From Natronogracilivirga saccharolytica (GTDB lineage Bacteria > Bacteroidota > Rhodothermia > Balneolales > Natronogracilivirgulaceae): a DNA stretch of 64,000 nucleotides. The stretch is from contig NZ_JAFIDN010000011.1 in assembly GCF_017921895.1 (NCBI RefSeq), forward strand, positions 1 to 64,000, written 5' to 3'. Made by a program: the position numbers and the translations under genes. This document shows, one piece after another, positions 2,053 through 57,967 of the stretch. How positions within the stretch are numbered: position 1 is the first letter of the stretch; every line of letters begins with the position of its first letter. Under the pieces are notes generated by a model that was given only the letters and a program-made list of their open reading frames with translations, had not been told where the DNA came from and did no database searches.

Positions 2053-5000
2053 TCACCCCGCAACCAGCTTTCTTCCACTTTCCAATAAAGAAGCCGGCAT
2101 CGGTTCCTCAAGTCGCCAGGTTATGCTCATAGGTTGTGCCCCTTCATGCGTCACATATTGCACAGGGCCCAGAAAAACATAGCCAATGGTATTGCCCCAT
2201 TTCGACTTTTTCCGCTCACGTACGAAAAGCAACACGTTCTTGCCTTTATCACGTTGTTGTACATATTCCTGACCTCGACCACGATCGGGTCGGGCAGAAT
2301 TCTGTGACTGCCAGTGGAATAGTTCTTCGTTGATGGCATAATCGTGGTACATGGTGGTTGGTGAGTATTCTTTTTCACTTTTCTCCAGCGTGACAAATAG
2401 AAGCTCGGTATTGGTTTCACCAATGCGTGCTACCCCCTCTTTAATTGACTTTGATTTTCTAAAATCATTGAATCCGAAAGCTGTCAAAATCTGATCACGA
2501 TGGTAACGCGCATGAAATCTAAGGGGACAAGGGTATCCAGGTCGAAAAGTTTTTTCTTCTACTTCGATTCGGGCGATAATCCAATCCAGTACCTGCACAA
2601 TTTCAGTACACATCACAGGATGTGACCCGATATGTTCTACAGCCCGCGTCAAGGAGCTAAATCCTGCTTTAGCCGGCGGGACGCTCCATATATCGTAACA
2701 GAGCATCATAGCCATCAACGCGTGTTCTGGTTCTTTAAAATCAGAATCGTCCAGGCTGGATACCTTGTTTTGTGCGAATTTCGCCAACAGCTGCCTTATA
2801 AATCGGAAGTATCCCACACATCGATTGGGCAACCATTTCTGGAAAATAGCTTTAGTAACATTCTTTTCGAGAGATTCGGAAAATCCCGGTATTAAGCCGG
2901 CATCGGCGCACAAACGATGAAAATTTTTATCCCGCTTGTATATTTCTTCCGGGTCCAAATGGTAAAACTCCAGAAAGTTCTCAAGTGTAAGTGGTAGTGT
3001 CGACTGATGCTGAAACTGCCTGATTAGATGGCGCATATGAGCATGGGTGCGCCGTGTGTTTCGGCGGATATTTTCGATAATTCGATCTCGGGCCACTCGC
3101 TCAAGTGTAATGGAACACCCCAGTGGCAGATTCGGAAAATCACGTTCGATTTCGCGTCGTGTGGATGTGTCCGTCTTGCCTACCAATGCCCGGAACTTAT
3201 GTTCGTAATCGTACTCCTTGCGGGCATTTGCGACATAATCCAACACTGTTAAACACTCCTTGCCATCCGAATTGCGCAATCCACGCCCAAGTTGCTGCAG
3301 AAAGACAGTCAAACTCTCAGTGGGACGTAAAAACAGCACAGTGTCCACCTCCGGAATGTCGAGACCTTCATTAAACATATCCACCACAAAAAGGTAGTTA
3401 ATATCGCCTCGTGCCAACTTCAGACGCAGCTCTTCTCTCCGGATGGCATTCTTGCTGGTAAGTACAGCGGCCCGGAAACCTGCAGAGACAAAGCGTTCCG
3501 CCATAAACTCAGCATGCCTCATATCCACGCAAAAACCCAAGGCACGCACTTTGTGCTCATCGACGGTGTATTTGCGAATGCTATCAATAACCTCACCGAC
3601 ACGTGCATCAGATGCGGTGTAGACATGGGACAATTCTTCGGTCGCATAACCTCCGCGTCGCCAGGTCACGCCTGAAAGATCGACACTATCGGTGATGCCG
3701 AAGTACTGAAATGGACAGAGCAGTTTTCGGTTGAGTGCCTCAGGCAGACGGATCTCCGCGGCTATCCGATTGTCAAAATCACGCAGAATGTCTTCACCGT
3801 CCATGCGTTCGGGCGTGGCCGTGAGTCCAAGCAGCACTTTAGGTTTGAAATAGTCGATGATGGGACGGTAACTGGACGCAGCAATATGATGCACTTCATC
3901 CACTACAATGTAGTCGTAGTATTCCTTACTCAGCGAAATTTGATCCCATCGGCTATTGAGTGTCTGGACGGATGCGAATACGTAATCAACATGAGTGGGC
4001 TCATAGCGACCAGTCCATAATTCACCAAAATTCTGATCACGGAGAATACCACGGAACGTGGCCATTGCCTGCTTAAGGATCTCCTCTCGATGTGCTATGA
4101 ATAGCAATTTTGGACGAGTGGTTGTATTCGCTTGCCTTTGCAAATTTTCTTGTTCCTCTTCCTCCTTTTTACAAAACCTGCGATAATCGAATCCAGAGAT
4201 TACCGTTTTTCCCGTACCAGTTGCAGCAACTATCAGGTTACGCCAGCTGTCATGCACTGACCGACGAGCGCTGAGTGTTTCCAATATCCGCTGCTGAAAC
4301 GGGTACGGTCTCAGATCGAAATAAACGAAAGATGGTGTGGCATCATAAGACCGACGTGCATCCCGCAGTGCACTGGTAAGCCGCTTAGCTTCATAGGGCT
4401 CGAAATCGTAATCATTCCAGTATGTTTCAAAAGTCTTTATGAACTTGTCGATGATATGGCTGATTTCGCTGTTTGTGACCTTCAAGTTCCACTCCAGTCC
4501 GCTGGTGAGTGCGGATTGCGAGATGTTGGATGAACCTATATAGGCGGTATGAAAACCCGTGTTGCGCCGGAACAGATACGATTTGGCGTGAAGTCGTTCA
4601 CTGCCGGTATTGTAGGAGACTCGGATTTCGGTATTCTGAAGTTCATTCAGAAATCGGATGGCCTTTTCGTCGGTTGCACCCAGGTAAGAGGTGGTAATAA
4701 CACGCAGGCGTCCACCACGGCCGGTAAATTCCCGCAATTCTTGCTCGAAAATCCGGATACCAGTCCATTTGATAAATGAAATGAGCAAGTCAATACGGTC
4801 TGATGACAGAATCTCCTTTTTAAGCTCGCTCTCCATGGTGATTCCTGCGCGACTGCCAGTGAAAAGCTCGCTTTGAGTGAGACGTGTAACCGGAGTGATG
4901 CGCTTTAAGTGTTCTTCGAGGTTGGAAAATGGCGCATTATTCTGGTCGAAAACGGCAGTAAGTACCTGGCCACCGGCCTCAATAAGATCCTCAGATAGAT

Positions 5001-5262
5001 CCAGCCGTCGTGTGCTTTGATTCAGCCGCTCGATAAGCTCATTGCATAGTTGGATTTGCTGTTTAATACCTTCGTGATCGGACCGATATTCACCAAGGAC
5101 CGACTGCATAATCCGGGAAAGATATCGACTCAGGTATAAGGCGGCCTCTTCGGGATCAAGTGGTTCCTTTGCAATATGATATTGGCGTTGATCTTGTTCC
5201 TCAAGCTTACGTTGGAGCGTCCTGCTGATGAGTTGTTCGTAAAGTCCGTAAGTGAGAGTCAT
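2053..5262 (-). CDS. PLD-nuclease/DEAD-box helicase with DUF3427-type C-terminus
   Basis: A large protein of 1069 residues. Residues about 155-255 form a phospholipase D-like nuclease domain with one HxK motif (LHAKSYLF, residues 224-231, then YIGSSNISQSAL). A superfamily II helicase follows: Walker A AATGTGKT at 346-353, FIAHREEIL, DEVH at 455-458, LTATPERMDG, and the motif VI region LQQLGRGLRNSDGK. The C-terminal third (from roughly residue 800) matches the general layout of DUF3427, which is usually found on such proteins. Proteins of this build are common in defence islands and are thought to act on foreign or damaged DNA; the actual substrate is unknown. It is a single-gene unit, with the ATG at 5262. 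Confidence 0.85.
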   Translation of the reverse strand: MTLTYGLYEQLISRTLQRKLEEQDQRQYHIAKEPLDPEEAALYLSRYLSRIMQSVLGEYRSDHEGIKQQIQLCNELIERLNQSTRRLDLSEDLIEAGGQVLTAVFDQNNAPFSNLEEHLKRITPVTRLTQSELFTGSRAGITMESELKKEILSSDRIDLLISFIKWTGIRIFEQELREFTGRGGRLRVITTSYLGATDEKAIRFLNELQNTEIRVSYNTGSERLHAKSYLFRRNTGFHTAYIGSSNISQSALTSGLEWNLKVTNSEISHIIDKFIKTFETYWNDYDFEPYEAKRLTSALRDARRSYDATPSFVYFDLRPYPFQQRILETLSARRSVHDSWRNLIVAATGTGKTVISGFDYRRFCKKEEEEQENLQRQANTTTRPKLLFIAHREEILKQAMATFRGILRDQNFGELWTGRYEPTHVDYVFASVQTLNSRWDQISLSKEYYDYIVVDEVHHIAASSYRPIIDYFKPKVLLGLTATPERMDGEDILRDFDNRIAAEIRLPEALNRKLLCPFQYFGITDSVDLSGVTWRRGGYATEELSHVYTASDARVGEVIDSIRKYTVDEHKVRALGFCVDMRHAEFMAERFVSAGFRAAVLTSKNAIRREELRLKLARGDINYLFVVDMFNEGLDIPEVDTVLFLRPTESLTVFLQQLGRGLRNSDGKECLTVLDYVANARKEYDYEHKFRALVGKTDTSTRREIERDFPNLPLGCSITLERVARDRIIENIRRNTRRTHAHMRHLIRQFQHQSTLPLTLENFLEFYHLDPEEIYKRDKNFHRLCADAGLIPGFSESLEKNVTKAIFQKWLPNRCVGYFRFIRQLLAKFAQNKVSSLDDSDFKEPEHALMAMMLCYDIWSVPPAKAGFSSLTRAVEHIGSHPVMCTEIVQVLDWIIARIEVEEKTFRPGYPCPLRFHARYHRDQILTAFGFNDFRKSKSIKEGVARIGETNTELLFVTLEKSEKEYSPTTMYHDYAINEELFHWQSQNSARPDRGRGQEYVQQRDKGKNVLLFVRERKKSKWGNTIGYVFLGPVQYVTHEGAQPMSITWRLEEPMPASLLESGRKLVAG

Positions 5263-5464
5263 AATGGAAAAGACACGTCAAGATGGCTTAAATTTTGTCT
5301 TTCTATCCAACTTATTCCAATTTTGATTATTAACCATGGTACTTACGATGAAAAAACACTGCACCTAGAGAATCCATACATCATACTGCTTTTCTTAAGA
5401 CTTTGGGTACTCAATCAATGCTATTAATTTCATGCCTGACCAGGCAATAATTCAAAATTTTACC

Positions 5465-5562
5465 GCAGCTGTTGTCCTCGCAATATAATTTACGATTGAC
5501 CTCCAGCATAATCTACGCCACCCGCTTGTCATTGCCATACCAGGCAAGTGGCACGATGTCGC
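5465..5562 (-). pseudogene. C-terminal fragment of an N-formylglutamate amidohydrolase-like gene
   Basis: The minus strand reads DIVPLAWYGNDKRVA, a stop, then IMLEVNRKLYCED. The intact gene at 10575-11330 encodes TIVPLAWYGKDKRVA followed by SIMLEVNRKLYLED. The fragment therefore carries a nonsense codon in place of serine, and its 5' side is joined directly to a transposase-like fragment. It is one of three copies of this gene in the window, and only the one at 10575-11330 is intact. Confidence 0.8.
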
Positions 5563-5680
5563 CCTTATTGGGCGCAGATTCCTCCAGAAAGGCATTACGT
5601 TCGGCTTTCATCATGCCGTTCAGGGTCATCCCCATGACCTCATTCAGACCGTTTTCTAGTTGAAGGTGGGTGGCAATGAG
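5563..5680 (-). pseudogene. transposase fragment, IS256/mutator-like (tentative)
   Basis: The minus strand gives LQLENGLNEVMGMTLNGMMK followed by AERNAFLEESAPNKG, preceded by a stop. The pattern 'NGLxxxxxxxLNxxMKxERxxFLE' is like the N-terminal portion of IS256-type transposases. The frame runs without interruption into the amidohydrolase fragment (junction near 5563), so it is a chimeric scrap. Confidence 0.45.
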
Positions 5681-5977: not shown

Positions 5978-6268
5978 TTATGTGTACATTGAATAGTGTG
6001 AGCTATGTGAGCTGTGTGAGCTGTGTGAACTATGAGAGCTGTGAGAACGGTGCGAACTATGTGAAGAGTGGGATCTATGAGAGGTATGCTGATTAGATGA
6101 ATAAAATTCACTGCCATAAATCTCATTTGCATGTTTCAATACGAGTCCGTCATTTTCTTCATACTCATTATAAACAATATCTTTTGCAGATAATATGCTT
6201 GTTTTTTGAGTAATAGAAGTTCCAATAAATATAAATCCAGTAAGTAGAACAGTTAATAATCTTCTCAT
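5978..6268 (-). CDS. hxsA: HxsA, His-Xaa-Ser repeat precursor peptide
   Basis: A 96-residue protein and presumably the substrate of the two radical SAM maturases upstream. Residues 1-20 (MRRLLTVLLTGFIFIGTSIT) look like a Sec signal or membrane segment. Residues 21-60 are a polar acidic spacer. Residues 61-93 are eleven consecutive H-x-S tripeptides, x being T, R, S, S, R, S, S, S, S, S, Y, followed by MYT and the stop. The start is fixed by a strong GGAGGAG site (6271-6277), one of few good Shine-Dalgarno sites in this window, which suggests strong translation of the precursor. It is last in hxsD-B-C-A, 157 AT-rich bases after hxsC, so a separate promoter is possible. The modification and its role are not known to me. 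Confidence 0.9.
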   Translation of the reverse strand: MRRLLTVLLTGFIFIGTSITQKTSILSAKDIVYNEYEENDGLVLKHANEIYGSEFYSSNQHTSHRSHSSHSSHRSHSSHSSHSSHSSHSSHYSMYT

Positions 6269-6425
6269 ATCTCCTCCAACTACTCTTTTTTCTAATGAAT
6301 ATTAAATTTCTGTTTCGTTGCAATTTAAACTTAGATTTTTAATTTGTCAACAAACTAGTTAGCAAATATTCAGAATATATATGTTGTTGTTTATTTTTGT
6401 TTTGATCCTATATGTTTGATTAGCT

Positions 6426-7544
6426 TTAATTATTCATTACAGGTTGAATTTTTCTACTATGAAACTTTTCTGATGATGCAAAAAAACCTGGACATTCGGA
6501 TTTAATATTGCATAATTCACATTTCTGGACATAAATATTTTTCCATTCTGAAATTGATTTAACCGCAAATCTTCTTATTTTTTCTGGTAAAATGCATAAT
6601 TGGCTATTATATATTGATACATGCATATCCCTATAGTGTAATATCAGTACTGCTTTTTCTAATTGTTCGTTGTAGTCATATGGGTCAATCCAGAGTTCAT
6701 TGATATTATTAATTGCATGTCCCGTTGGCTCCATTTGCATAAATGCAATCTGATATACAAATGGCATATTTGAGTAGATAAACTCAGCTATATTTGCCAA
6801 TCTTTTATAGTTGTGCTTCATTACAACAACACGTATACCAATTTTTACATTGTAAGAAGCAAGGTTATAAATACCTTTTATTGTGTCATAGAATGTTTTT
6901 GTACCTACTATATTGTTATGTATATGATCTATATCACAATACAATGGTATTTCTATAACTGTTCTTTCATTTATACAGCTTGCATAATCATAAGCATATT
7001 TCTTATCCTTAAATTTTATACCATTTGACAATATGTTTATATGTATTTCAGGTTGTCTCTTTTTGATTTCTTTAATTATACCAAATAATTGTTCACCTAT
7101 AACAGTGGGTTCACCTCCAGTCAAGCCAATCGATTCCGTTTGTTTAGGTAGGAGTCTTATATATTCAATATTGAGTTTAAATCTATCTGCTTCCTTTTTA
7201 ACTGGTGGTTGGGAACACATTATGCAATTAGAGTTACATCTCCCAGTAATAAATATCGCATTATGTTTTGATCCTTTTTCGTAAACAACATTTATTACGC
7301 CACTGGAGTCGATTGTAACTATATCACCATTATTAAGCTCATCAGTGTTACTTACACCCGATACACCTTGCTGTTCGCTTAAAAGCTTATGACCTGTAAT
7401 TATAGCTTTATATTTCCCTTTAATATCTATTTGATCAGTTACTAGGACATAGTCTTTTCTTCTTAAAAAAGCCCTATTTTCTTTTACTATTATTCCAATA
7501 ATAGTCTCTTCTAGATTATATGGTTCCCCAAATAGTTGCTTCAT
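6426..7544 (-). CDS. hxsC: HxsC, His-Xaa-Ser system radical SAM maturase
   Basis: A radical SAM enzyme of 372 residues. The CxxxCxxC cluster motif is C-NSN-C-IM-C (Cys 103, 107, 110 from the chosen start), binding the [4Fe-4S] cluster that cleaves S-adenosylmethionine; GLTGGEPT follows as the SAM-contacting glycine motif. A C-terminal CELCNIKSECPGFF suggests an auxiliary iron-sulfur site. The roughly 100-residue N-terminal part before the cluster motif fits HxsC. I place the start at 7544 because its ATG overlaps the hxsB stop as ATGA; an in-frame ATG at 7577 would add 11 residues. It is presumed to act on the HxsA repeats together with HxsB. Composition is strongly AT-rich like the rest of the operon. 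Confidence 0.88.
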   Translation of the reverse strand: MKQLFGEPYNLEETIIGIIVKENRAFLRRKDYVLVTDQIDIKGKYKAIITGHKLLSEQQGVSGVSNTDELNNGDIVTIDSSGVINVVYEKGSKHNAIFITGRCNSNCIMCSQPPVKKEADRFKLNIEYIRLLPKQTESIGLTGGEPTVIGEQLFGIIKEIKKRQPEIHINILSNGIKFKDKKYAYDYASCINERTVIEIPLYCDIDHIHNNIVGTKTFYDTIKGIYNLASYNVKIGIRVVVMKHNYKRLANIAEFIYSNMPFVYQIAFMQMEPTGHAINNINELWIDPYDYNEQLEKAVLILHYRDMHVSIYNSQLCILPEKIRRFAVKSISEWKNIYVQKCELCNIKSECPGFFASSEKFHSRKIQPVMNN

Positions 7545-8977
7545 AATTCTATATTTCTGCGAATAATCCAACTCCAAAATATTTTGTTTATTTCAGGGTT
7601 GTCTTCTTTAAGTAGACTTAACAAGTACTGAATTATACTTTTATTTTTTTTACAGAAGTCACTAGTTGGTCTATGACCTATGAAATCTTTTTGTTCATTA
7701 TAGTTTCTTACTGGGTCTCCTCCACAATAAGACAAATAAGCACAAGTCGAACACTGAGGAAGACTTTCAGCAACTGAATATTCAATCAGCTCATGAAGAT
7801 AGTCACTATTAAATATATCTTCATACTTATCATTGTTAACATTACCTATTTTAAATGTTTTGTCCCCTGAAGAGGCTAACATTCTTCCTTCATCAGAAAC
7901 ATATACGTCACCGTCATAATCATATATAACACCTGAAATAGCTATACCACTTGGTGATTGAAGATCTACAAATCCAGTGCTAAATGGAGTTAAGATTCTA
8001 GAAAGCAATATTGTAGCATAGTCTTCACAAAAATATTCACCGGAAAGATTAATTTGAATGATATAGTCTAAACCTAACTTATACTCTTCAATAAATTTAT
8101 TTACTGGATAAGCTAAAAAATGCTCATCTCTTTTAGCAAATCCATAAGGATTTAGTGCTCTCAAAAATATTGAGTTAAAACCTAACTCCCTATATGTGTC
8201 TATGATCTCAGGAAAGTTTCCTAGGGAATAGGATGATGTTGTCATTAGTGCTGATACGCTATCTTCTCCAAGATATTCCCTACAAAGCTTTATTTTCTCT
8301 ACTACTGATTCAAAACTATTATTATTTTTTTGTAATGGTCTATTTTTATTATGAAGGTCTCTTGGTCCATCAATAGATGTTGATATGTAAACCTTGTGTT
8401 TACTTATCCACCTAAGCATCTTCTCATTAATTAATGTCAGATTTGTACAAATTACAAACTCTAGATTTTTTTTATGATATATATTTTTCCACTCTGCATA
8501 GTTTATTATATATTTGATTATTTTATAATTAAGTAAAGGCTCCCCACCTTGAAATTCTATTTTTATATTATTGCTAGGACTTTTAAAAATCATGTCTACT
8601 GTTTTTTTCGCAGTAGACTTATCCATATCGAACTGATAATCTTCTACATTTTTTTTTGATACTTGACAATAGCTACAATTTGCGTTGCACCTCAGAGATG
8701 CAACAATCATATGTAGAGAGGTAAACTCAGATAGAAAATTTTTTTTTGTTCTATATTTAGTCGCAAGTAATTCAATAACTGATTCAATATTTGTATCAGC
8801 AACAATATGCTTGCTTTTTAAATTTAGATATGCATCAGATTCTATATCAAGATTATGGTTCACAAATGAATTAAAGTCAATTGGATTCAAATAGACATAT
8901 TCTCCTATTTCGTTTGAAATGAAGTAATCGTCTTCGAATCTTTCAAATCTAAACGGCAGTATACTATAATTACTCAT
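7541..8977 (-). CDS. hxsB: HxsB, His-Xaa-Ser system radical SAM maturase
   Basis: A 478-residue radical SAM/SPASM protein. The cluster motif C-NAN-C-SY-C lies at Cys 97, 101, 104; EFQGGEPLLN supplies the SAM-binding glycines. The C-terminal CSTCAYLSYCGGDPVRNYNE and later SDFCKK are SPASM-type cysteines for auxiliary [4Fe-4S] clusters, as in peptide-modifying maturases. A GTG at 8980 is also in frame, but the ATG at 8977 shares one base with the hxsD stop (TGATG), the usual coupled arrangement. Paired HxsB/HxsC maturases next to an H-x-S precursor define this system. Which residue of the repeat is modified, and how the two enzymes divide the work, cannot be read from sequence. Confidence 0.9.
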   Translation of the reverse strand: MSNYSILPFRFERFEDDYFISNEIGEYVYLNPIDFNSFVNHNLDIESDAYLNLKSKHIVADTNIESVIELLATKYRTKKNFLSEFTSLHMIVASLRCNANCSYCQVSKKNVEDYQFDMDKSTAKKTVDMIFKSPSNNIKIEFQGGEPLLNYKIIKYIINYAEWKNIYHKKNLEFVICTNLTLINEKMLRWISKHKVYISTSIDGPRDLHNKNRPLQKNNNSFESVVEKIKLCREYLGEDSVSALMTTSSYSLGNFPEIIDTYRELGFNSIFLRALNPYGFAKRDEHFLAYPVNKFIEEYKLGLDYIIQINLSGEYFCEDYATILLSRILTPFSTGFVDLQSPSGIAISGVIYDYDGDVYVSDEGRMLASSGDKTFKIGNVNNDKYEDIFNSDYLHELIEYSVAESLPQCSTCAYLSYCGGDPVRNYNEQKDFIGHRPTSDFCKKNKSIIQYLLSLLKEDNPEINKIFWSWIIRRNIEL

Positions 8978-9288
8978 CACTTATTAATTGAAGAAAATGC
9001 TTTTTTTACCAACTGCTTTCTTATCTCTTTATACTCTCGACCTGTTGTTAATCTTATTTGCTGATCGATTACTTCATTATTAAATTCACGGGCAATAGTA
9101 TCTAAGTTAATATTTTTATCTTTTTTCTTAAGACAGACCTCTATCCCTGACTCATTCGTATTGATACTTATGTAGCACCTATCTGTAAAGATATAAGATG
9201 AATGTATAATTGAAGTAATTTCAAAAACATTTTTGTCCACATTGATCACAATCGAATCAGCGTCAATTCTTTGATTTGTATCTTCCAT
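8977..9288 (-). CDS. hxsD: HxsD, His-Xaa-Ser system accessory protein
   Basis: A 103-residue soluble protein, first gene of the operon. Its C-terminal half (FNNEVIDQQIRLTTGRE, then IRKQLVKKAFSSI) matches the pattern by which HxsD is recognised, 'LNDYxLRExIxxxTxxIRxLIxxxAFS', though the LLNDY core is degenerate here (FNNEV-IDQQ). The N-terminal half is a run of beta strands. Its role is unknown; a substrate-binding or leader-recognition function is a reasonable inference, given its constant association with the two maturases. It overlaps hxsB by one base. The preceding 190 bases are extremely AT-rich. Confidence 0.8.
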   Translation of the reverse strand: MEDTNQRIDADSIVINVDKNVFEITSIIHSSYIFTDRCYISINTNESGIEVCLKKKDKNINLDTIAREFNNEVIDQQIRLTTGREYKEIRKQLVKKAFSSINK

Positions 9289-9481: not shown

Positions 9482-9735
9482 ACCATCCTGCAATAGAGCT
9501 TGCGATCGACCTCCAACATGAATGACTGCGCAAGCGGCGCGATTGCCCGCTAGCTCAATCCCAGCAAGTATGCGCTCACTTCATCAAAACCGATGAAAGC
9601 ATCATTAAGTAAGTCGTCGGAGTGCCAGTCCGTGAGCGTGAGTAGCTCCTTTTCGATGTGGACCCCATCTACAAGAAATCTATCCAGGGACGGGATTTAC
9701 GTTGAGGTGTCCGGGATGTGTATGATATGGAGGGT
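9482..9735 (-). pseudogene. decayed N-formylglutamate amidohydrolase copy with a large internal deletion
   Basis: The DNA is a close but mutated match to the two ends of the intact gene at 10575-11330. Bases 9493-9585 correspond to the C-terminal part around the 'LEVNRKLY' and 'WYGKDKRVA' codons, and 9616-9732 correspond to the first 40 or so codons (the 'LIIHIPHAST' and 'LLTLTDWHTDDL' segments). The middle of the gene is missing. It lies immediately to the right of the Hxs island. Confidence 0.75.
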
Positions 9736-10574: not shown

Positions 10575-11330
10575 TCAGACCGTCACACTCGATGCGATTA
10601 CATCCAGATAGTCCTGAATTGTCTGTCGGACATGGTCATAATTCCCATTTTTGTCGCTGCTGCCATCCTCCAGATACAGTTTTCGATTGACCTCCAGCAT
10701 GATGGACGCCACCCGCTTGTCCTTGCCGTACCAGGCAAGCGGCACGATGGTGCCCTTGTAGGGCCAGTCCACCCCCAGCGAGTATCCGCGCGCTTCGAAA
10801 AAGCGGACGGACGCATCCACAAGTTCCTGCGGCGTGTGGAACGGGTCGGTGCCGATGTTGAAATCCGGACGGGGCCGGCGCGGGTCCAGGTCGCGCTTCA
10901 GGGGGATGTCCGGATAGGAATGCGCATCCACGATGACGGCCCGACCGACCCGGTCCAGTTCCGCCTGCACCGCCTTCTCGAGCCTGGCATGGTGCGGGTG
11001 ATAATAGCGCTCCAGGATCCGCTTCCGCAACTCCGGGGTCACATTGCGCATCGGCTCGCCGTCGTCGGTCGATTCGTAGAGCACGCCCATCCCGAATTTC
11101 GCCATGACTTCTTGACGATCGTCCGCAAACCGCTCCACGTCGCAGAAGATGCGGGAGAATCCGGCCGCGACCGGATGATCGTCACGGGCCGCATCCACAA
11201 ACAGATCGTCGGTGTGCCAGTCCGTGAGCGTGAGTAGTTCCTTTTCGATGCGGGCCCCATCCACAAGAAATCCATCCCGGGATGGGATGTGCGTTGAGGC
11301 GTGCGGGATGTGTATGATGAGGCTGGTCAT
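10575..11330 (-). CDS. N-formylglutamate amidohydrolase family protein
   Basis: A protein of 251 residues. Landmarks of the family are the opening SLIIHIPHASTHIP, the WHTDDLF segment, RIFCDVERFADD, VDAHSYPD in the middle and ASIMLEVNRKLY near the end. These supply the His, Asp and Glu residues expected at the metal site of this zinc-peptidase-like fold. The founding member hydrolyses N-formyl-L-glutamate in histidine breakdown, but no other hut gene is nearby, so the substrate here is uncertain. Its start codon abuts the stop of the PIN-like gene at 11331, so it probably shares the transcript of the DUF433/PIN-like pair. Two decayed copies lie at 5465-5562 and 9482-9735. Confidence 0.88.
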   Translation of the reverse strand: MTSLIIHIPHASTHIPSRDGFLVDGARIEKELLTLTDWHTDDLFVDAARDDHPVAAGFSRIFCDVERFADDRQEVMAKFGMGVLYESTDDGEPMRNVTPELRKRILERYYHPHHARLEKAVQAELDRVGRAVIVDAHSYPDIPLKRDLDPRRPRPDFNIGTDPFHTPQELVDASVRFFEARGYSLGVDWPYKGTIVPLAWYGKDKRVASIMLEVNRKLYLEDGSSDKNGNYDHVRQTIQDYLDVIASSVTV

Positions 11331-12660: not shown

Positions 12661-12790
12661 TAAAATGGTCAGAATTGTCACGGATCACCACTATTCAGAA
12701 TTGTTGATATTCAGGGGTGAGACTTCGTTATAAGAGTAGAATATTGCAAGAAGTATTGAAAAGTGATAACTTTTGCAAAAAGTTACTATT

Positions 12791-13606
12791 ATGGGTTCGC
12801 AATCTTTCACTCGTTTGGAGCATTGGGTCGGGCATCTGCTAGCTACCGGAAAGTATGCATTTTCCTGGGAGGAGCTTAAACAAAATATGCCTCATAGTAC
12901 CACGGACGCACTTAAACAATCCCTGAATCGCGAAGTCAGGAAAAACAATATCCTTTCCATCCATAAAGGATATTATATCATTATTCCGCCGTCCTATAAG
13001 GCCCGGGGTATTCTGCCACCGACACAATTTATCGACGGGCTGATGCATTTTCTGAAACGTCCCTATTATGTCGGGCTGTTAAGTGCTGCCTCTATGCATG
13101 GAGCAGCACATCAGCAACCTCAGGAGTTTTTTGTGGTGACCGAACTACCCGTACTACGTCCAACCCGAAAAAAGGGAATCAAGGTTAATTATCTTAGCAA
13201 GAAGAACTTCCCGAAATCTTTCATCCAGCAAATAAATACGGAAACCGGCTTTATTAAAGTTTCCAGTCCACTACTTACCGCGGTGGATTTGATTCAATAC
13301 AACCACCACATCGGAGGAATCAACCGGTCTGCCGTCGTCCTGCATGAATTGATGGAGGTAGTTGGAAAAGAAGATTTCACGAATGAATTACTGGAATATG
13401 TCCCGGTTTCCGTTATGCAAAGACTGGGTTATCTGCTGGAATACAAAGTCGAATATGTCGAATGGGCAGACACACTTTTTCGTCTGTTGGATAAAAAAGG
13501 GGTTAAACTATTCCGGACGCCTTTGAAAACGGGTTCCTCTGAGAGTGGTTATTCGGCGGATAACCGCTGGAAAGTGCTTGTAAATGTGGATGTGGAAACA
13601 GACTGA
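12791..13606 (+). CDS. AbiEi-type antitoxin (type IV toxin-antitoxin)
   Basis: A protein of 271 residues from ATG 12791; a TTG at 12773 is also in frame but less likely. The first 70 residues are a winged helix-turn-helix (TRLEHWVGHLLATGKYAFSW, then IHKGYYIIIPPSY). The rest follows the AbiEi C-terminal domain with PYYVGLLSAASMHGAAHQ, FFVVTELPVLRP and SSPLLTAVDLIQYNHHIGGI. In the AbiE family this protein represses its own operon and prevents toxicity of AbiEii without tight binding. Its stop is three bases before the AbiEii start. It is intact, unlike many neighbours. Confidence 0.88.
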   Translation: MGSQSFTRLEHWVGHLLATGKYAFSWEELKQNMPHSTTDALKQSLNREVRKNNILSIHKGYYIIIPPSYKARGILPPTQFIDGLMHFLKRPYYVGLLSAASMHGAAHQQPQEFFVVTELPVLRPTRKKGIKVNYLSKKNFPKSFIQQINTETGFIKVSSPLLTAVDLIQYNHHIGGINRSAVVLHELMEVVGKEDFTNELLEYVPVSVMQRLGYLLEYKVEYVEWADTLFRLLDKKGVKLFRTPLKTGSSESGYSADNRWKVLVNVDVETD

Positions 13607-13609
13607 TCA

Positions 13610-14401
13610 ATGATACCCCGCGCATATATTACAGAATGGAGCAGTGTAGTCCCATGGCAAACGGATGAGCAGATTGAGCAGGATTTGATAATCTGTCGTG
13701 CACTTTGTGAAATTTATCAGGATGAATTCCTGTCGGAAAAACTGGCTTTCCGCGGCGGAACCGCATTGCACAAGTTGTATTTATCCCCGCAGCCGAGATA
13801 CTCCGAAGATATCGATTTAGTGCAGATAGTTGGTGAACCCATCAAACCGGTAATTCGCCGCCTTCGGGAAAGGCTGTCTTTTTTAGGTGATGCATCCATA
13901 AATCAGAAAAAGGATAACAACACCCTGTCATTCCGTGTAGCGGCGGAATCAGATCCATCGATAGTCCTGCGACTTAAAATTGAAATCAATTGTCGTGAGC
14001 ATTTTTCTATGATGGGGTATTTTCATAAACCATTTCAAGTGGCAAGTTCCTGGTTTAATGGAGAATGTGAAATTACTACATATCGGCTGGAAGAATTGAC
14101 GGGGTCAAAATTGCGAGCAATGTATCAAAGGAAAAAAGGGCGTGATTTATTTGATCTATATAAAGTCTTGATAAACCGGAAACCATTTGACGAGCAGGAA
14201 GCTATAGCCTGCTACCAACGTTATATGGAGTTATCCGGGGGTAAATCCCCAACAAAAAGACAATATTTATTGAATCTGGATAAGAAAATGACTGATTCCG
14301 AGTTTTTTGGTGATCTTGAAGCACTTGTGAGACCGGATGAATCATTTGATTGGCAGGAAGCATATGAAGTGGTGAGAGAGCGACTCATTGAACGTATTTG
14401 A
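13610..14401 (+). CDS. AbiEii-type nucleotidyltransferase toxin
   Basis: A protein of 263 residues. LAFRGGTALHKLYL followed by RYSEDIDLV is the Gly-Gly and DxD signature of the nucleotidyltransferase toxins AbiEii/AbiGii (DUF1814). Further on, RLEELTGSKLRAMYQRKKGR and DLFDLYKVL form the conserved Lys/Asp motifs III and IV. Related MenT toxins transfer nucleotides onto tRNA acceptor ends and block translation; the target here is not determined. It forms an operon with the AbiEi-type gene immediately upstream. All catalytic motifs are present, so the system is probably active and may act in phage abortive infection. Confidence 0.9.
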   Translation: MIPRAYITEWSSVVPWQTDEQIEQDLIICRALCEIYQDEFLSEKLAFRGGTALHKLYLSPQPRYSEDIDLVQIVGEPIKPVIRRLRERLSFLGDASINQKKDNNTLSFRVAAESDPSIVLRLKIEINCREHFSMMGYFHKPFQVASSWFNGECEITTYRLEELTGSKLRAMYQRKKGRDLFDLYKVLINRKPFDEQEAIACYQRYMELSGGKSPTKRQYLLNLDKKMTDSEFFGDLEALVRPDESFDWQEAYEVVRERLIERI

Positions 14402-16743: not shown

Positions 16744-17880
16744 TCAATACGACAGGATCTCGACCAGTGCCGGGTTGATGTAGTAGTGCCGGCCCCTGAT
16801 CTCTCTTTTCTCCAGGATTTGTAATTCCGCCAGCTCATTCAGGTAGTTGCGGGCTGTGTTTTCGGCATAAATCCCGCGATCGACCAGATGTTGCACCTTG
16901 ACATAAGGCTGGGTGAAAATCGCTTCGGCGAGATCCCCGGGCCGACGGATGTCCGTCTGTTCCCGCAGCACGTCAAGTATATCCTCCCTTGTTTCAATGA
17001 TGTCATTGACCTTCCGGAGGGTAAGCTGCGAAGTCCACTCCACTGCTTTCAGCATGTAGAGCAACCAAGCCTTCCAATCACCGCGCTGGGATACGCCCGC
17101 GAGGTACTCGTAATAATCCTGCTTGTGCTCAAGGATGTACCGGCTCAGGTAAAGAATGGGCAGTTCCAGCTGATGGCTCCGGGTGATGATGTGCAAATTC
17201 ATGATTCGTCCCACCCGTCCGTTACCGTCCCGGAACGGGTGGATCACCTCGAACTGGTAGTGGGCAATGCACATTTTAAGCAGTACATCATCCGGCTGCG
17301 ACTGCTCATCGTTCAGAAAGTCGATCAGATTGTCGAGTTTGGCTTCCACCACTCCCTTGCCGCGAGGCGGGGTAAAGACAGGTTTTCCCGCGTTCGGACC
17401 GCTTCCTCCCATCCGGATGAATGTCCTGGCAAACGGCGGACGAATGCCATCCCCGCTCTCCTGGATGATCTGATACAGTTTGATAAAATAGTCCCGGTCG
17501 AATGCGCCTTTCTTTTTCAGATAGTGATACCCCTCCCAAAGGGCCTCACGGTATCGGAGCACCTCTTTGGCAGGTCCCGCAGATTCACCACCGGTTTTTG
17601 AATCGCTCATCGCCCTGTAGAGGTCGTCATCGGTGGTGAACACGTTTTCGATGGCACTTGAAACCTTGGCCTCCTGGAGTGTGATGGAATTGATAAGCAT
17701 CCCTGGATTTGGAATGGCAATACTTCGTCCTGCCAGCAACGCCAGCGCTTCTTTTGCCCGACCGAGCTGCTCGTAGATATCCACATCTCTGTAGAGATCC
17801 GGTGCAATCGGCAAATCAGGCAGAGCATTCCACGGCTGTGTCCGGTCCGGGTTTACTGTGTATTGCTGTGCTTTTGGCAT
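16744..17880 (-). CDS. Fic family protein (AMP-transferase type)
   Basis: A protein of 378 residues. The Fic catalytic motif HPFRDGNGR lies at 214-222, with His214 as the expected catalytic base and the Asp/Gly-Asn loop for the nucleotide. N-terminal to it, S74-SAI-E78-N matches the class II inhibitory motif [S/T]xxxE[G/N], whose Glu blocks productive ATP binding, so the enzyme is self-inhibited. Residues about 300-378 form a winged helix (FTQPYVKVQHLVDRGIYAEN). Such proteins modify a target hydroxyl with AMP from ATP. It is a single gene; the target is unknown. Confidence 0.9.
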   Translation of the reverse strand: MPKAQQYTVNPDRTQPWNALPDLPIAPDLYRDVDIYEQLGRAKEALALLAGRSIAIPNPGMLINSITLQEAKVSSAIENVFTTDDDLYRAMSDSKTGGESAGPAKEVLRYREALWEGYHYLKKKGAFDRDYFIKLYQIIQESGDGIRPPFARTFIRMGGSGPNAGKPVFTPPRGKGVVEAKLDNLIDFLNDEQSQPDDVLLKMCIAHYQFEVIHPFRDGNGRVGRIMNLHIITRSHQLELPILYLSRYILEHKQDYYEYLAGVSQRGDWKAWLLYMLKAVEWTSQLTLRKVNDIIETREDILDVLREQTDIRRPGDLAEAIFTQPYVKVQHLVDRGIYAENTARNYLNELAELQILEKREIRGRHYYINPALVEILSY

Positions 17881-18812: not shown

Positions 18813-20645
18813 CTACATATATCTCACACGGTCTGAAAATACCTGTTCCAGTTCTTCTTTCATTGCCCGCCGTGTCGGATACTCCTCTATCAATCTCCTG
18901 ACAATATTTCGCACTCGCCCCAGTCCACCCCGCCATTTGATCATAGCACGCAGTTCGTTTGCAATGTCCCGGTAATACTTGCGCCCGACATTTTCAGCGG
19001 CGTATGCTTCAATGGCCTGCTGCATTACATTACCGGCTCCCTCAGGCCGCATCTCAGCCATTTTCGGGGCAAATACGCAGATACTGTTAAAACCAGAGGG
19101 ATTGCCGGCTTCATTCATAAGCATTTCTTCCAGCCGGTCAAAGCGTTTTTCTTCAACATAGATCTCCGCCAAAAAATGGTCGACATGAAAAACATCTTTT
19201 CGTTTCTTTTGCTTGGCTATGATTTTTTCCAGCTCTCGCGGCCATTCCGCTTCCGGCCATGTTTTTTTGTACTCCCTGAACCATTTCATATGCCGGTAAT
19301 CGTCAAAAATGAGTTTTTCCAGCCATGTTCTCATGTCGGCCGGACTGTTTTCGCCCTCTGCTATTTCATAGAGCAGTTTATACCAGGTTGTTGATTGCGA
19401 CCCGTCATCCTCCAAGGATATCGTCATCCTGTCCCCCTCATCGGCTTTCTTCAACCCCTCCGCACTTAATTGCTTCGCCTCTGCGAAGTGCTTTTTTTCG
19501 ATGTAATACCTGACCAGCATCAGACAGAACTTCGGATCATCTTTCATGGACAGCATCACTTCAACGGCTTCTTTTTCCCGTCCCAAATGCTGCAGATACT
19601 CGATCTTGATTTCTTGCACCTGATGTTCGCCTATGAAGGATTGTTCGCCGTTTCTGAACTCATCGGTAAGACGATCCAACAGCTGCAGGTACCGCTCGAC
19701 TCTGCTCGCATCCGTGGCCGAAAGCCCCATGGCGTGCAGCAAATGATCCGGCACGTCACCGATGTGCAACTTTTCATCCGGAAACATGTTCCAGATGGAA
19801 TCAAACAGGTTGTTCTTCAGCTCCTCATTACCGGATTCCACTATTTTGCAAAGCTCTTCGGCTGCTGACTCCATGAATCCGTCTGCATCCGGCAGTTCAT
19901 AGTAATCATTCCCGTCCTCTATCAATTCCTCCAGGCTGACCGGCACCTCCTCGAGAATCGCTTTCGCAATGAGAAGGGCTTCCTCCGGCCTGTTTTCCTC
20001 ACGATGCTTCTTTGACAGATCAAGCAGCCAGTCCGTTTGAGCCATCAGCTGATCCGACAGCATATCCATATCCTCGAAATCCCGATACTCCGGATATTCA
20101 GCAAAATGCCGGTTTCTGAAGGCGGATCGAACCGCTTTCGATACAATGCGCCGGTACCTTTCCGATTTTTGATGTTCCGGCAGCCGGTACAAAAACTCAC
20201 TTTCGAAAACACTTGCAAGCTGGTGATCTTGTTCCAGCTTACTGCGTAAAAATCCAATCAACTCTTCATTGTCGAGTACTTCGAAAAGCTGATCAATTAT
20301 CAAACGCGACTCAAAAGCCGGCAGCTTGTATAAGTCCCCCGCTCGGGCAACCCCCGGATATTTGTCTCCGGCAACCTGAAGCACCGCGAAACACGCAGCT
20401 ACAACATGTTTGCACACCGGCCCGTCAAACGGACAGTCACAATGCCACTCGTCGTCACCTTCGGGATTGAAAGTGAGCGATACCTCGTAAACCCGCCTGC
20501 CCATTGCACGGGTCACCCATTTATGCTCCGATACTCTTTCGGGAGATTCTATGAAGTCGTTTCTGAAGTAGTCCAGGCCCCGGTCGAAAATCTTCGGACT
20601 CACGTATTCGGGCAGCCTGACGAGCATATCTTCCGGCATAATCAT
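18813..20645 (-). CDS. SWIM zinc-finger protein with TPR-like helical region
   Basis: A 610-residue protein. WHCDCPFDGPVCKHVVAACF is a SWIM zinc finger with ligands Cys69, Cys71, Cys78 and His80. The N-terminus (ISPRxFxRGxxYF-type; here VSPKIFDRGLDYF) is the usual opening of SWIM proteins. From about residue 190 onward it is a helical repeat region (HREENRPEEALLIAKAILEE and similar), likely protein-binding. SWIM proteins often accompany SNF2 helicases; here the nearest helicase is 3 kb away and not co-transcribed. The molecular role is unknown. It is a complete gene facing the BrnTA pair. Confidence 0.82.
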   Translation of the reverse strand: MIMPEDMLVRLPEYVSPKIFDRGLDYFRNDFIESPERVSEHKWVTRAMGRRVYEVSLTFNPEGDDEWHCDCPFDGPVCKHVVAACFAVLQVAGDKYPGVARAGDLYKLPAFESRLIIDQLFEVLDNEELIGFLRSKLEQDHQLASVFESEFLYRLPEHQKSERYRRIVSKAVRSAFRNRHFAEYPEYRDFEDMDMLSDQLMAQTDWLLDLSKKHREENRPEEALLIAKAILEEVPVSLEELIEDGNDYYELPDADGFMESAAEELCKIVESGNEELKNNLFDSIWNMFPDEKLHIGDVPDHLLHAMGLSATDASRVERYLQLLDRLTDEFRNGEQSFIGEHQVQEIKIEYLQHLGREKEAVEVMLSMKDDPKFCLMLVRYYIEKKHFAEAKQLSAEGLKKADEGDRMTISLEDDGSQSTTWYKLLYEIAEGENSPADMRTWLEKLIFDDYRHMKWFREYKKTWPEAEWPRELEKIIAKQKKRKDVFHVDHFLAEIYVEEKRFDRLEEMLMNEAGNPSGFNSICVFAPKMAEMRPEGAGNVMQQAIEAYAAENVGRKYYRDIANELRAMIKWRGGLGRVRNIVRRLIEEYPTRRAMKEELEQVFSDRVRYM

Positions 20646-21230: not shown

Positions 21231-21422
21231 GGCAAGAAACACATTGGAATATACCCGCTTTTGAAAGATCACACTTCCTGGTTTATTACTGCTGAATTCG
21301 ACGGTAATAAAGCACGTAACGAGGCATACCGGGTGCTTTCAATCCTTGAGAATGATTCACTACCTGTTTATATGGAGCGGTCAGAGAATGTGCTGCTTCA
21401 AAAAAGCACTTGCGATCTTTGA
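21231..21422 (+). pseudogene. fragment of a TOTE-type archaeo-eukaryotic primase domain
   Basis: The plus strand encodes KKHIGIYPLLKDHTSWFITA, then EFDGNKARNEAYRVLSIL and LPVYMERSEN before a stop at 21420. This matches the primase core of TOTE conflict systems as I recall it: 'vGvYPLLxDxTCwFLAxDFD', then 'gxPxYLERSRSGxGxHxW'. The alignment breaks just at the second motif. The 3' end overlaps the end of hipT on the other strand. No helicase or nuclease partner of a TOTE system is present. Confidence 0.5.
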
Positions 21423-22339
21423 TCAAGTATGGAAAGGTATTTCGATTTCATCTCATTATTTAGAAACGATCGACTTATGATCTCTTTAAAAGCCGGTAAC
21501 TTTGCCTCCAGATTGCTGATCGCATTGGCAACCTGGCGCTGATTCAGTCCAATATTCCTGCCAAAGGAAATAAAAACGGCACGATTGAAATTGCTTTTTT
21601 TGCCTCCGATTGTCAGCGCCAGTTCCTCCGGATCTTTATTGGCCGGCATAACCAGCCTTGTATTGATCAGGTCATAAGCATTGGCCAGTTTCCATCCGGA
21701 TTCCTGCTCCTTCAGGAGTGAGAAATTTTTCAGATGCATATCAGCGTTTCCAGTCAGGTAGCAGAACAATATGAGATCAAAATACCGGGTAAGATCAAAG
21801 CCGGGGTTGTCAGAGTACTTTTTTATAATCCCGGAAATCTGTTCATGTGAACCCTTGTATTTGTCTTCGGTCAACCGTTCTGTGAGCTGACACATATCCT
21901 CCATGGCCATTTTTTGCCCAGTGCTTCTGCGATCGATTCTCCTGGTCAGGAACGAAAGCTCCCCGCTTCGCAAGCGCACAAGTCCAAACGGAACCGTTTG
22001 TATTCCAGCTGCATCGGCCAGAGAAAGCGTAGTATGTTCGTTTTCAGGAAGCTGATCCCATTGTTGGGACGGTGGCTTCAGGATATATCGTCCCCAAAGG
22101 CCTGTAATTGTTATTTTCGGATGACGACCTGCCTGTTTTTGTACCTCCATAGACATTTTTGCCTGAACGCCGGGTATGGTAACCCGCTGTCTGACGACCT
22201 GACTTGCCAGCTGATTTAGCTCTTCAAGATCATAGGGGATTTCCGGAACATGTGGACTTTCGAACAAACGCCGGGCACATTTTGTATGATATTCTCCAGT
22301 ATCTCCCGTTTCCCGGGTGCATATCAGACATTTACTCAT
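21398..22339 (-). CDS. hipT: HipT-like kinase toxin (HipA C-terminal part)
   Basis: About 313 residues from ATG 22339; an in-frame ATG at 22411 is less likely. The start MSKCLICTRETGDTGEYHTK is the small N-terminal element typical of stand-alone HipA-C proteins. VTIPGVQAKMS is the Gly-rich loop region, YLTGNADMHLKNFSLL is the catalytic loop (Asp and Asn), and NAYDLIN is the metal-binding Asp. In HipBST of E. coli O127, HipT phosphorylates tryptophanyl-tRNA synthetase and is restrained by HipS. The start overlaps the hipS stop by eight bases. All kinase motifs look intact. Confidence 0.85.
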   Translation of the reverse strand: MSKCLICTRETGDTGEYHTKCARRLFESPHVPEIPYDLEELNQLASQVVRQRVTIPGVQAKMSMEVQKQAGRHPKITITGLWGRYILKPPSQQWDQLPENEHTTLSLADAAGIQTVPFGLVRLRSGELSFLTRRIDRRSTGQKMAMEDMCQLTERLTEDKYKGSHEQISGIIKKYSDNPGFDLTRYFDLILFCYLTGNADMHLKNFSLLKEQESGWKLANAYDLINTRLVMPANKDPEELALTIGGKKSNFNRAVFISFGRNIGLNQRQVANAISNLEAKLPAFKEIISRSFLNNEMKSKYLSILDQRSQVLF

Positions 22340-22709
22340 GATGTCCCTCTGATTCATCATCGCGGCCACTGGATGGTCCCCAGCCGACAGATGGTTCCCG
22401 TACACTGACATTCCCGATGCAGTCCCGGCAACTGACCAGGAGCAGGCCCATTCTGTCCCGCGGGTTCACCTTCCAGGTTTCCGTCACCACATCCAGAAGC
22501 CATCCCTCCGGAATCAATCCATCAAAAAACGGAAACATGACATTGGATTGATACGGCTCCCGGCGAAGCGGGAGTGTCAGACTGACCGGAGCGACATCGC
22601 CTGAATCCAGATATTCAGCCGCATAGGCAAATTCATATCCGGTTTCGGTTTCCTTCAGAATACCCGCAAACGCTTCATGGACATAAATATGTGCTATTCT
22701 ATGCATCAT
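22332..22709 (-). CDS. hipS: HipS-like antitoxin (HipA N-terminal domain)
   Basis: A 125-residue protein corresponding to the N-terminal subdomain of HipA on its own. It reads AHIYVHEAFAGILKETETGY, then EFAYAAEYL, PVSLTLPLRREPY, LFPFFDGLIPEGW-like FPFFDGLIPEGWLLD, and finally NPRDRMGLLLVSCRDCIGNV. In tripartite HipBST systems this split-off domain is the actual antitoxin. It lies between hipB (12-base gap) and hipT (8-base overlap). The last 25 residues are a polar tail. Confidence 0.85.
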   Translation of the reverse strand: MMHRIAHIYVHEAFAGILKETETGYEFAYAAEYLDSGDVAPVSLTLPLRREPYQSNVMFPFFDGLIPEGWLLDVVTETWKVNPRDRMGLLLVSCRDCIGNVSVREPSVGWGPSSGRDDESEGHHE

Positions 22710-39406: not shown

Positions 39407-39682
39407 ATTTCTTCCGCAGCGTGTTTACTGTTTACTATTTCAGTTCCGGGTAAGGTTGGCCAGCATTGTTTAATATGCAGCACGTAAATAACCCATCCAG
39501 AACAGTTGTTTATTACATATCGTTCCGGTTGTAAATTAATGAATATCAAGGAACTGGATCAGGTGTTTCTTCGTTCAGCTCCAGACATTAACAATGACTT
39601 TGTTACTCCGGGACCCGGGCGGACTGCAAGTCCGGCTTTGCATCCGGAGCTGAAATATAAATCAAAACCAGCGGGTAGTCTC

Positions 39683-54443: not shown

Positions 54444-54532
54444 TTTAAAAAAACCGCTCCGGATGATTTCGGGCAGCTTTTCTGCCGCAATGCATGAGTG
54501 GCTTTACCGGACAGATATCGGGAGGTTTCATC

Positions 54533-57500: not shown

Positions 57501-57967
57501 ATTTGTCGACCGGAGCCTGGGCGGTGTATTACAACGATATGTCCAACGATACCAAATACGGCAAGCTCTACAACTGGTACGCCGTGTCAGATCCCCGCGG
57601 GTTGTGTCCGGTTGGATGGCATCCTGCGAGCAGGGATCCCGGCAGCCCCTACTCATGGAGCCGGCTTTCTGTGGAACTCGGCGAAAGAGAGGTAGCCGGG
57701 GAAAAGATGAAAAGCACCCATGGCTGGATACATAACGGCAACGGCACCAACGAAAGCGGTTATAATGGTCTTCCGGGCGGACTCCGGCTCGCAAACGGCA
57801 CCTTCAGCGGCAAGAGTTACTACGGCTTCTGGTGGACTGATACCGATGGTTTTGGTTCCCGGCCACACGAAGCCTGGTATTACCGGCTTTATTATGGAGA
57901 TTCTGAGATTCTGGGAAGAGACGGGGACAAGACGGCCGGATTGTCGGTGCGGTGCGTCAGGCAGTAA
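54533..57967 (+). CDS. secreted subtilase with N-terminal sorting-like domain, dockerin-like repeats and FISUMP end
   Basis: A 1144-residue protein; GGAGG at 54521-54525 fixes the ATG at 54533. A signal peptide (SALLCLFLFLITSAKG) precedes a YPNPFQD sorting-like domain (about residues 75-165), which normally sits at the C-terminus. The S8 peptidase has Asp497 (IADYFGDG), His525 (NHGYHVLGIISG) and Ser758 (GTSMATPQAAGLAAY). Two Ca-binding dockerin-like loops follow (LDVNDDGVFDHHDL, LNGDGFTGGDSTD), then a FISUMP domain (WWMAENLRVSHYRNGDPIP, GLCPVGWHPAS, GLSVRCVRQ at the very end). An extracellular or surface protease; substrate unknown. Confidence 0.88.
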   Translation: MNIRHFVRPSALLCLFLFLITSAKGTSLEVRVQDNYTARPLHSAWVTLFSDGEEIGSGYTDNRGYVVLSLPTGSDEPPDLPAALALSPNYPNPFQDETRVDIAVPEDQTITVTVYNILGRRVATRQMPVRSGYHTLTMSLGHLATGVYFLRVDGNESRTVSMFRMGSGVHRGGPAFSMAPGRAPEVHGQVPVRTRQDYDASDHSGASPETTAASYTIRVEKDRYDTYQADLNIPASRHVTLSISRNNLVEFLVTDTDGTGLPMPLDITSGHFHTSINTPETLTLKSGVYRASGAIGSGLKLAHEIEVASVDTTVVLRFDEAGVLLPGEPQARAGDAAYDLDIRILYPGNAVTEDPELLYGGQVLRTEIELIVDPDATVGQMNELLDTYDAQIVSMLSDNIIFVIRVPDPGSIDALNNLIDQIRNEPVVWMASKSVIVEGPDSINDANQQPGGIQQIPGHTTSMVRIDHHLAARAHAAWNMRSTIADMDRRPQIVIADYFGDGVPGIGYNASFRNADFATGATSNHGYHVLGIISGMYDPVETLESGPNDVTGMFPERLHVRAVDLADTLLNTWPRRMNQIISTIREIIAGDEQARIVVNTSLNSRNIANQKESAIRWITRIRGENIHTFNAGLETRFVHFTSAGNNRYDNGNIVSWPASDNSMFAYATIRDMLFDNRPVPRLRNTIVIENRVHTGHLDSEEARSRPMPGCASYSSIMGGSLSAMGTDIWSFGDCLFESDGECIVPVSDPRTSYMTGTSMATPQAAGLAAYVWAVNPELSVNDVMDIMFSTSVADTSRNTPGFSCHQQMPKPVIDAYAAVLAGGGENARLALLDVNDDGVFDHHDLRIIIDSLRLRDGALDYSRFDLNGDGFTGGDSTDRFDLDMNSQYTVVWEFIDGEPVSFDESHLTDMDILCYYAWSDLYQGDPDQREESLFGLCREPETDVVIDIDGNVYPIVRAGTQWWMAENLRVSHYRNGDPIPNITDADEWTDLSTGAWAVYYNDMSNDTKYGKLYNWYAVSDPRGLCPVGWHPASRDPGSPYSWSRLSVELGEREVAGEKMKSTHGWIHNGNGTNESGYNGLPGGLRLANGTFSGKSYYGFWWTDTDGFGSRPHEAWYYRLYYGDSEILGRDGDKTAGLSVRCVRQ

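Follow-up and report, generated by a model that had tools for sequence, protein, structure and literature searches.

An intact, foreign His-Xaa-Ser operon in Natronogracilivirga saccharolytica and a tentative case for His-Ser cross-linking of its repeat precursor

The HxsA, HxsB, HxsC and HxsD families of the His-Xaa-Ser (Hxs) system were reportedly defined by Haft and Basu through comparative genomics. In the accessible literature searched, mentions of HxsB and HxsC are confined to family annotations and to a putative role as maturases of the motif (PMC9062424), and to a list of the genes around blaSPM-1 in Pseudomonas aeruginosa (PMC8446631). Among better described enzymes, those of the triceptide systems (XncB, OscB, MscB, HaaB and YhhB) share with Hxs a motif that spans i to i+2 and opens with an aromatic residue, and three-residue cyclophanes made by radical S-adenosylmethionine (SAM) enzymes are reported to join C2(His) to Cβ(Ala or Arg), or C4(Phe) to Cβ(Ser) (PMC11002830). 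Compared with the triceptide systems, Hxs has two radical SAM enzymes together with HxsD, a long tandem array and apparently one auxiliary cluster. Two further points of reference are the ranthipeptide maturase PapB and the anaerobic sulfatase-maturating enzyme (anSME), which act on Cys or on Ser/Cys in other contexts. Here we describe the Hxs operon found in the first 64,000 nucleotides of contig NZ_JAFIDN010000011.1 of Natronogracilivirga saccharolytica (hereafter the window).

The window operon is a genuine, intact and foreign Hxs system, of a known kind and with an unsolved product. Its four frames, hxsD, hxsB, hxsC and hxsA, are all open and intact and span 9288-5978 on the minus strand (Table 1), which confirmed the gene order given for 5978-9288 by the original prediction, where the strand had not been stated. 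HxsB, HxsC and HxsD each scored above the NCBIfam cut-off, and the D-B-C synteny recurs in nearly all of the roughly 90 related loci, so that the operon is complete as claimed; the expected matches to TIGR03976-TIGR03979 were thus obtained for three of the proteins, but HxsA stayed below every HxsA model. Tight coupling of all four genes had also been claimed. This holds for hxsD/hxsB, which overlap by 1 base, and for hxsB/hxsC, which overlap by 4 bases, in both cases with ATG starts, but not for hxsA, which is separated from hxsC by a 157-nt gap. The precursor gene does have the strong ribosome site of its own that had been attributed to it. A promoter-like site also lies upstream of hxsA, although a promoter/terminator scan of the AT-rich operon region showed no excess of such sites over chance and found no terminator.

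The relatives with which the operon was compared were the best 80 of at least 519 loci in the genome collection, picked by similarity to the window HxsB, to which ten plasmid and phage loci were added. In this set, which covers many phyla, hxsD, hxsB and hxsC stand together almost without exception. In 55 loci the precursor gene precedes hxsD, and in 27, the window among them, it follows hxsC (on the other strand in three); the two positions are clustered on the HxsB tree, which was built as a quick tree. Among the mobile relatives, Klebsiella pneumoniae conjugative plasmids, Leptospira phage LnoZ_CZ214 and plasmids of Nostoc and Methylobacter have the same D-B-C block and an H-x-S precursor, but their HxsB proteins are only ~31-49% identical to that of the window and their precursors have other lengths, some with extra C-terminal parts. 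A single-protein scan of viral contigs returned no relative. Common to the system as a whole (TIGR03976-TIGR03979) are HxsB, HxsC and HxsD above cut-off and an H-x-S precursor by the D-B-C block, whereas the window differs in having its precursor gene last, with eleven units, and a precursor under the models TIGR03979, A2, A3 and A4.

HxsA has 96 residues and ends in exactly the eleven uninterrupted H-x-S units that had been predicted, followed by three residues. Among the 87 precursors compared this array is the largest, the others having 4-10 units. Its His codons are 6 CAC and 5 CAT and its eleven +2 Ser residues use all four TCN codons, and the array is therefore not the product of recent DNA slippage. 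Against the HxsA models the protein scored 34 bits for HxsA4 (cut-off 55), 31 for TIGR03979 (122), 26 for HxsA2 (48) and 21 for HxsA3 (65); since ten precursors of related loci likewise fell under all of these cut-offs, we place them together with HxsA in a precursor branch outside the present models. Over 84 residues HxsA shares 46% identity with the precursor encoded in the L034 genome, the nearest relative by identity, and it has in common with its relatives a hydrophobic start, a leader motif of the LVLxHA type and a core mostly ending in HYS. More generally, a hydrophobic-hydrophobic-Leu motif precedes the core in 64 of the 87 precursors, compared with a mean of 16.7 and a maximum of 27 in shuffled sequences. 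Another relative, L035, which is binned as Patescibacteria, has two precursors (2575-2823 and 4634-4900), one on each side of hxsC. A sequence search of HxsA and HxsD against solved structures gave chance-level matches only.

The repeat units of the relatives showed which residues are held constant. In their period-3 His arrays, position +2 was Ser in 573 of 575 units, though the search would have accepted Thr or Ala there as well; the middle residue varied (S 231, R 92, Y 89, A 68, G 34). The array search without the +2 condition gave the same picture, with seven non-Ser arrays that resemble unrelated His-rich frames. Because these searches were keyed on His, the invariance of His is weaker evidence than that of Ser. 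Codon use differed between the two positions, with 488 TCN and 74 AGY codons for Ser at +2 versus 102 TCN and 123 AGY in the middle, and the TCN bias at +2 is as expected if this Ser is rarely lost. With +2 fixed as Ser and the middle residue free, the His/Ser pair is the constrained target of the unit.

Both maturases contain the CxxxCxxC motif as predicted, but the full SPASM set of cysteines also ascribed to them is not present, HxsB having those of one auxiliary cluster only. In HxsB the conserved residues are C97, C101 and C104 of the SAM cluster and C409, C412, C418 and C442 of the auxiliary cluster, and only these seven Cys columns are near-universal (89-91 of 91 homologues each); in HxsC they are C103, C107 and C110 with C317, C342, C345 and C351, all seven being present in 38 of 38 sequences. 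With seven conserved cysteines per enzyme, HxsB and HxsC should each hold two clusters rather than three, that is, one auxiliary cluster apiece. anSME was among the best matches of HxsB to proteins of solved structure, and the match spans 364 residues. C409, C412, C418 and C442 align on the CxxCxxxxxC...C of anSME near the chain end, and we take these four to be ligands of AuxII and the other anSME ligand cysteines, whose positions are not Cys in HxsB, to be those of AuxI. HxsB accordingly fails a SPASM test that calls for two auxiliary clusters, having AuxII-type cysteines only, yet it still passes Pfam SPASM (22.9 against 21.5). When scored against family profiles other than its own, HxsB came closest to PapB, with 139 bits, and fell far under the cut-offs of the cyclophane-forming families tested, namely YhhB (94 bits against 445), GrrM/OscB (74.5 against 310), AmcB (72 against 425) and XyeB (61.5 against 450), so that it belongs to none of them. 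The AlphaFold2 model of HxsC (predicted local distance difference test score, pLDDT, 92.8) has a barrel that matches radical SAM enzymes, among them two peptide maturases, SkfB as the best match in the PDB and SuiB among the best. HxsD is predicted to fold as beta-beta-alpha-beta-beta-long alpha, and nothing in the PDB matched its model at E<=0.001; such weak leads as there were resembled Rpb11. We dropped the idea that HxsD is an RRE (a PqqD-like winged helix), as the predicted fold differs and no RRE stood among its 50 best PDB matches.

From these features we propose, with somewhat less than even confidence, that the enzymes of this horizontally acquired system use radical chemistry to cross-link His(i) to Ser(i+2) in one unit after another of a repeat that is exported. 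HxsB and HxsC, presumably dividing the labour between them and aided by HxsD, would bind the leader of HxsA at LVLKHA and proceed along the array; in every unit a 5'-deoxyadenosyl radical would be used to bond the His(i) side chain to that of Ser(i+2), and the single auxiliary [4Fe-4S] cluster would accept the second electron. The bond would most likely be a carbon-carbon bond of the three-residue cyclophane type, this being the simplest proposal in view of the i to i+2 spacing, the aromatic first residue and the precedents for both His and Ser; the similarity of HxsB to the cyclophane formers YhhB, GrrM, AmcB and XyeB, though below their cut-offs, points the same way. However, the absence of Ala and Thr from +2 points to some importance of the Ser hydroxyl, and this would also be compatible with oxidation of Ser or with an ether bond. 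We therefore also considered that the enzymes alter Ser alone, for instance to formylglycine as the anaerobic sulfatase maturases do, with His serving as recognition element or metal ligand. The long match to anSME and the invariant +2 Ser, whose hydroxyl would be needed, speak for such a reaction, but it would not require the equally invariant His (the weaker point, for the reason given above), formylglycine formation seldom involves two maturases or tandem arrays, and the ligands of the AuxI cluster are absent from HxsB; we regard it as unlikely. A 2 Da loss per unit is common to cross-linking and formylglycine, and mass alone cannot separate them. Distinctly unlikely in our judgement is a His-Ser link through oxygen or nitrogen in place of carbon (an ether C2(His)-O-Ser, or N-Cβ). 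It would account for the Ser-only +2 position, and ether links are reportedly made by radical SAM enzymes in darobactin (PMC9055067), but no homologue-level support was found for it and the His precedents found for radical SAM enzymes are carbon-carbon.

If cross-links are formed as we propose, the modified HxsA would leave by the general secretion route and remain at or outside the envelope. The N-terminus of HxsA has a mean hydropathy of 2.68 over LLTVLLTGFIFI, after a basic start. By the same crude test, which judges signal peptides by hydropathy only, a strongly hydrophobic stretch is present at the N-terminus of 78 of the 87 precursors, preceded in 69 of these 78 by a basic start. Downstream of the core, seven of the ten longer precursors scanned carry PG_binding_1, PKD, Big_9 (bacterial Ig/cadherin) or PEGA domains. 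Signal-like starts together with domains of envelope type suggest that the Hxs product is probably exported and held at the envelope, which would set it apart from an antibiotic that is small and diffusible.

When all neighbours of the related loci were clustered, most of the recurrent "neighbour families" were discarded because they resemble translations of hxsB and hxsC in a wrong frame or on the opposite strand; those that looked real were two nuclease families and a methyltransferase-like one. The methyltransferase-like gene was seen near hxs in eight loci (L042, L052, L054, L059 at 8522-9202, L091, L093, L107 and L112). A Pfam SNase or Endonuclease_NS gene stood in the flanks of 13 of the 44 genome loci tested, and a thermonuclease gene was also found beside two plasmid loci, L024 and L025 (Table 1). 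Of the 61 such nuclease genes in those genomes, 14 fall in hxs flanks, which make up 364 kb of 174 Mb, where the rates of the individual genomes predict 0.15 (Poisson P ~2e-23); this association was spotted only after the clustering and is a lead rather than proof. The nuclease gene lies 14 nt after hxsC in L025 and a few nt after it in L061, is found within ~45 nt after hxsA in L034, and stands just before hxsA in L103. The flanking nucleases belong to two unrelated families, and most begin with a signal- or lipoprotein-like sequence, as judged by eye. From this linkage we suggest that the product probably acts with, or protects against, extracellular nucleic-acid cleavage, the nuclease partner being missing in this genome. 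In a fuller and more speculative form, which we hold to be unlikely, the peptide would be stiffened by His-Ser cross-links, a bond new to natural peptides, or made metal- or DNA-binding by them, and would be the envelope-held partner of secreted SNase and DNA/RNA non-specific endonucleases in a pairing acquired repeatedly and independently. The same data bear on the idea that HxsA is an exported metal-binding His array whose affinity is tuned by the radical SAM enzymes, so that the nuclease link would come from the delivery of metal to nucleases that depend on it. The eleven evenly spaced His of a peptide that is probably exported would suit this, as would the secreted-type nucleases adjoining hxs in relatives. 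The idea leaves the invariant Ser unexplained, however, and the genes beside the operon include none recognised as a metal-specific regulator; we consider it improbable.

Several observations weigh against radical His-Ser cross-linking of an exported repeat that works with nucleases. HxsB scores higher with the thioether former PapB than with any cyclophane former, and the lack of the AuxI ligands found in anSME makes the mechanistic analogy a loose one. A Ser-only +2 position is stricter than a plain Cβ-H donor needs and also fits a reaction at the Ser hydroxyl. The signal peptide was judged by hydropathy only. Just 30% of loci show the nuclease link, which may stem from shared mobile or defence islands, and no gene of either the SNase or the Endonuclease_NS family was found in the genome of the window. 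Lastly, the accessible literature searched held no product of any Hxs system, although a report in subscription journals is possible; in this respect the earlier remark, that no settled product structure or function was known, stands.

The operon was acquired horizontally from a distant source. Its genes have a GC content of 29.5-34% and a GC content at third codon positions (GC3) of 21-27%, compared with 41-60% and 35-75% for nearby genes. HxsB was above cut-off in one of 98 related genomes and HxsC in one of 395 genomes of the phylum, in each case the window's own, with one partial second HxsC match below cut-off. In the quick tree the window HxsB groups with L034 and L035, from a Bacteroidetes metagenome-assembled genome and a Patescibacteria-binned contig, with a support of 100, and the wider tree set around it also includes Bacteroidales, Gastranaerophilales and Syntrophobacterales. 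The operon is flanked by N-formylglutamate amidohydrolase fragments, which were compared with an intact paralogue outside the hxs system (Table 1). Insertion of the operon into one amidohydrolase gene was considered and dropped, because residues 209-219 occur on both sides, from which at least two degraded copies are probably present. The foreign composition, the broken flanking fragments and the export signature are new beyond the original prediction. The flanking fragments with their stops, like the absence of the nuclease partner from the genome, might indicate a relic that was acquired and is now unused here. We judge this quite improbable, as all four frames are open, every conserved cysteine is kept and the array has kept its His and Ser with free synonymous variation; that the hxs frames are intact while the pieces around them have decayed speaks for selection.

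Table 1. Positions of the hxs genes, their elements and the flanking amidohydrolase sequences in the window, with the loci that have a flanking nuclease gene
Feature	Position	Strand	Description	Evidence or remark
hxsD	8977..9288	minus	103 aa accessory protein	TIGR03976 71.8 bits (cut-off 50); AlphaFold2 pLDDT 89.9
hxsB	7541..8977	minus	478 aa radical SAM enzyme	TIGR03978 621 bits (cut-off 370)
hxsC	6426..7544	minus	372 aa radical SAM enzyme	TIGR03977 361 bits (cut-off 267.9)
hxsA	5978..6268	minus	96 aa precursor	below cut-off of all four HxsA models
Promoter-like site upstream of hxsA	6322..6350	minus	TTGACA-17-TAAATT	10/12 consensus matches
Ribosome site of hxsA	6271..6277	minus	GGAGGAG	just 5' of the hxsA ATG
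Signal-peptide-like N-terminus of HxsA	6185..6268	minus	residues 1-28	basic start, then hydrophobic stretch
Leader motif of HxsA	6128..6145	minus	LVLKHA, residues 42-47	clade alignment; likely recognition element
HxsA core	5990..6088	minus	eleven tandem H-x-S units, residues 61-93	
N-formylglutamate amidohydrolase fragment, hxsA side	5423..5572	minus	residues 190-239, in-frame stop	tblastn 70% identity, E 5e-16
N-formylglutamate amidohydrolase fragment, hxsD side	9598..9726	minus	residues 5-47, in-frame stop	tblastn 77% identity, E 2e-15
N-formylglutamate amidohydrolase short remnant	9493..9525	minus	~residues 209-219	weak tblastn E 0.009; 40-base blastn E 2e-5
Intact N-formylglutamate amidohydrolase paralogue	10575..11330	minus	outside the hxs system	PF05013 160 bits; reference for fragment comparison
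hxs loci with flanking SNase or non-specific endonuclease			L024, L025, L034, L043, L053, L054, L055, L056, L059, L061, L077, L080, L087, L099, L103	many phyla

The surroundings of the operon were also surveyed. The first 23 kb of the window, around the operon, are rich in genes of toxin-antitoxin type, with ParE-like, AbiEi/AbiEii, Fic and HipA-like genes at 553-870, 12773-14401, 16744-17880 and 21398-22411. Adjoining the hxsA side, 2053-5262 encodes a protein of 1069 residues with PLD-like, ResIII/DEAD helicase and DUF3427 parts, which looks like a defence-type helicase, and a sodium/calcium exchanger gene (947-1906) lies 4 kb from the operon. Two large frames, 18813-20645 (610 aa) and 31630-33972 (780 aa), had no Pfam match at E 1e-10. 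Farther away, a protein with four CHRD domain matches (39506-42352) and a subtilase with a C-terminal Fibrobacter succinogenes major domain (54494-57967) are perhaps surface proteins.

With a precursor of 96 residues and eleven equal units, the window copy offers a compact and regular test case for the family. The new clues are that within the unit only His and Ser are fixed, that the product is probably exported, with fusions to envelope domains in several relatives, and that a secreted-type nuclease gene accompanies about a third of the related loci tested. If true, the cross-linking proposed here would explain a widespread mobile system and would add a new type of peptide bond to those made by radical enzymes.

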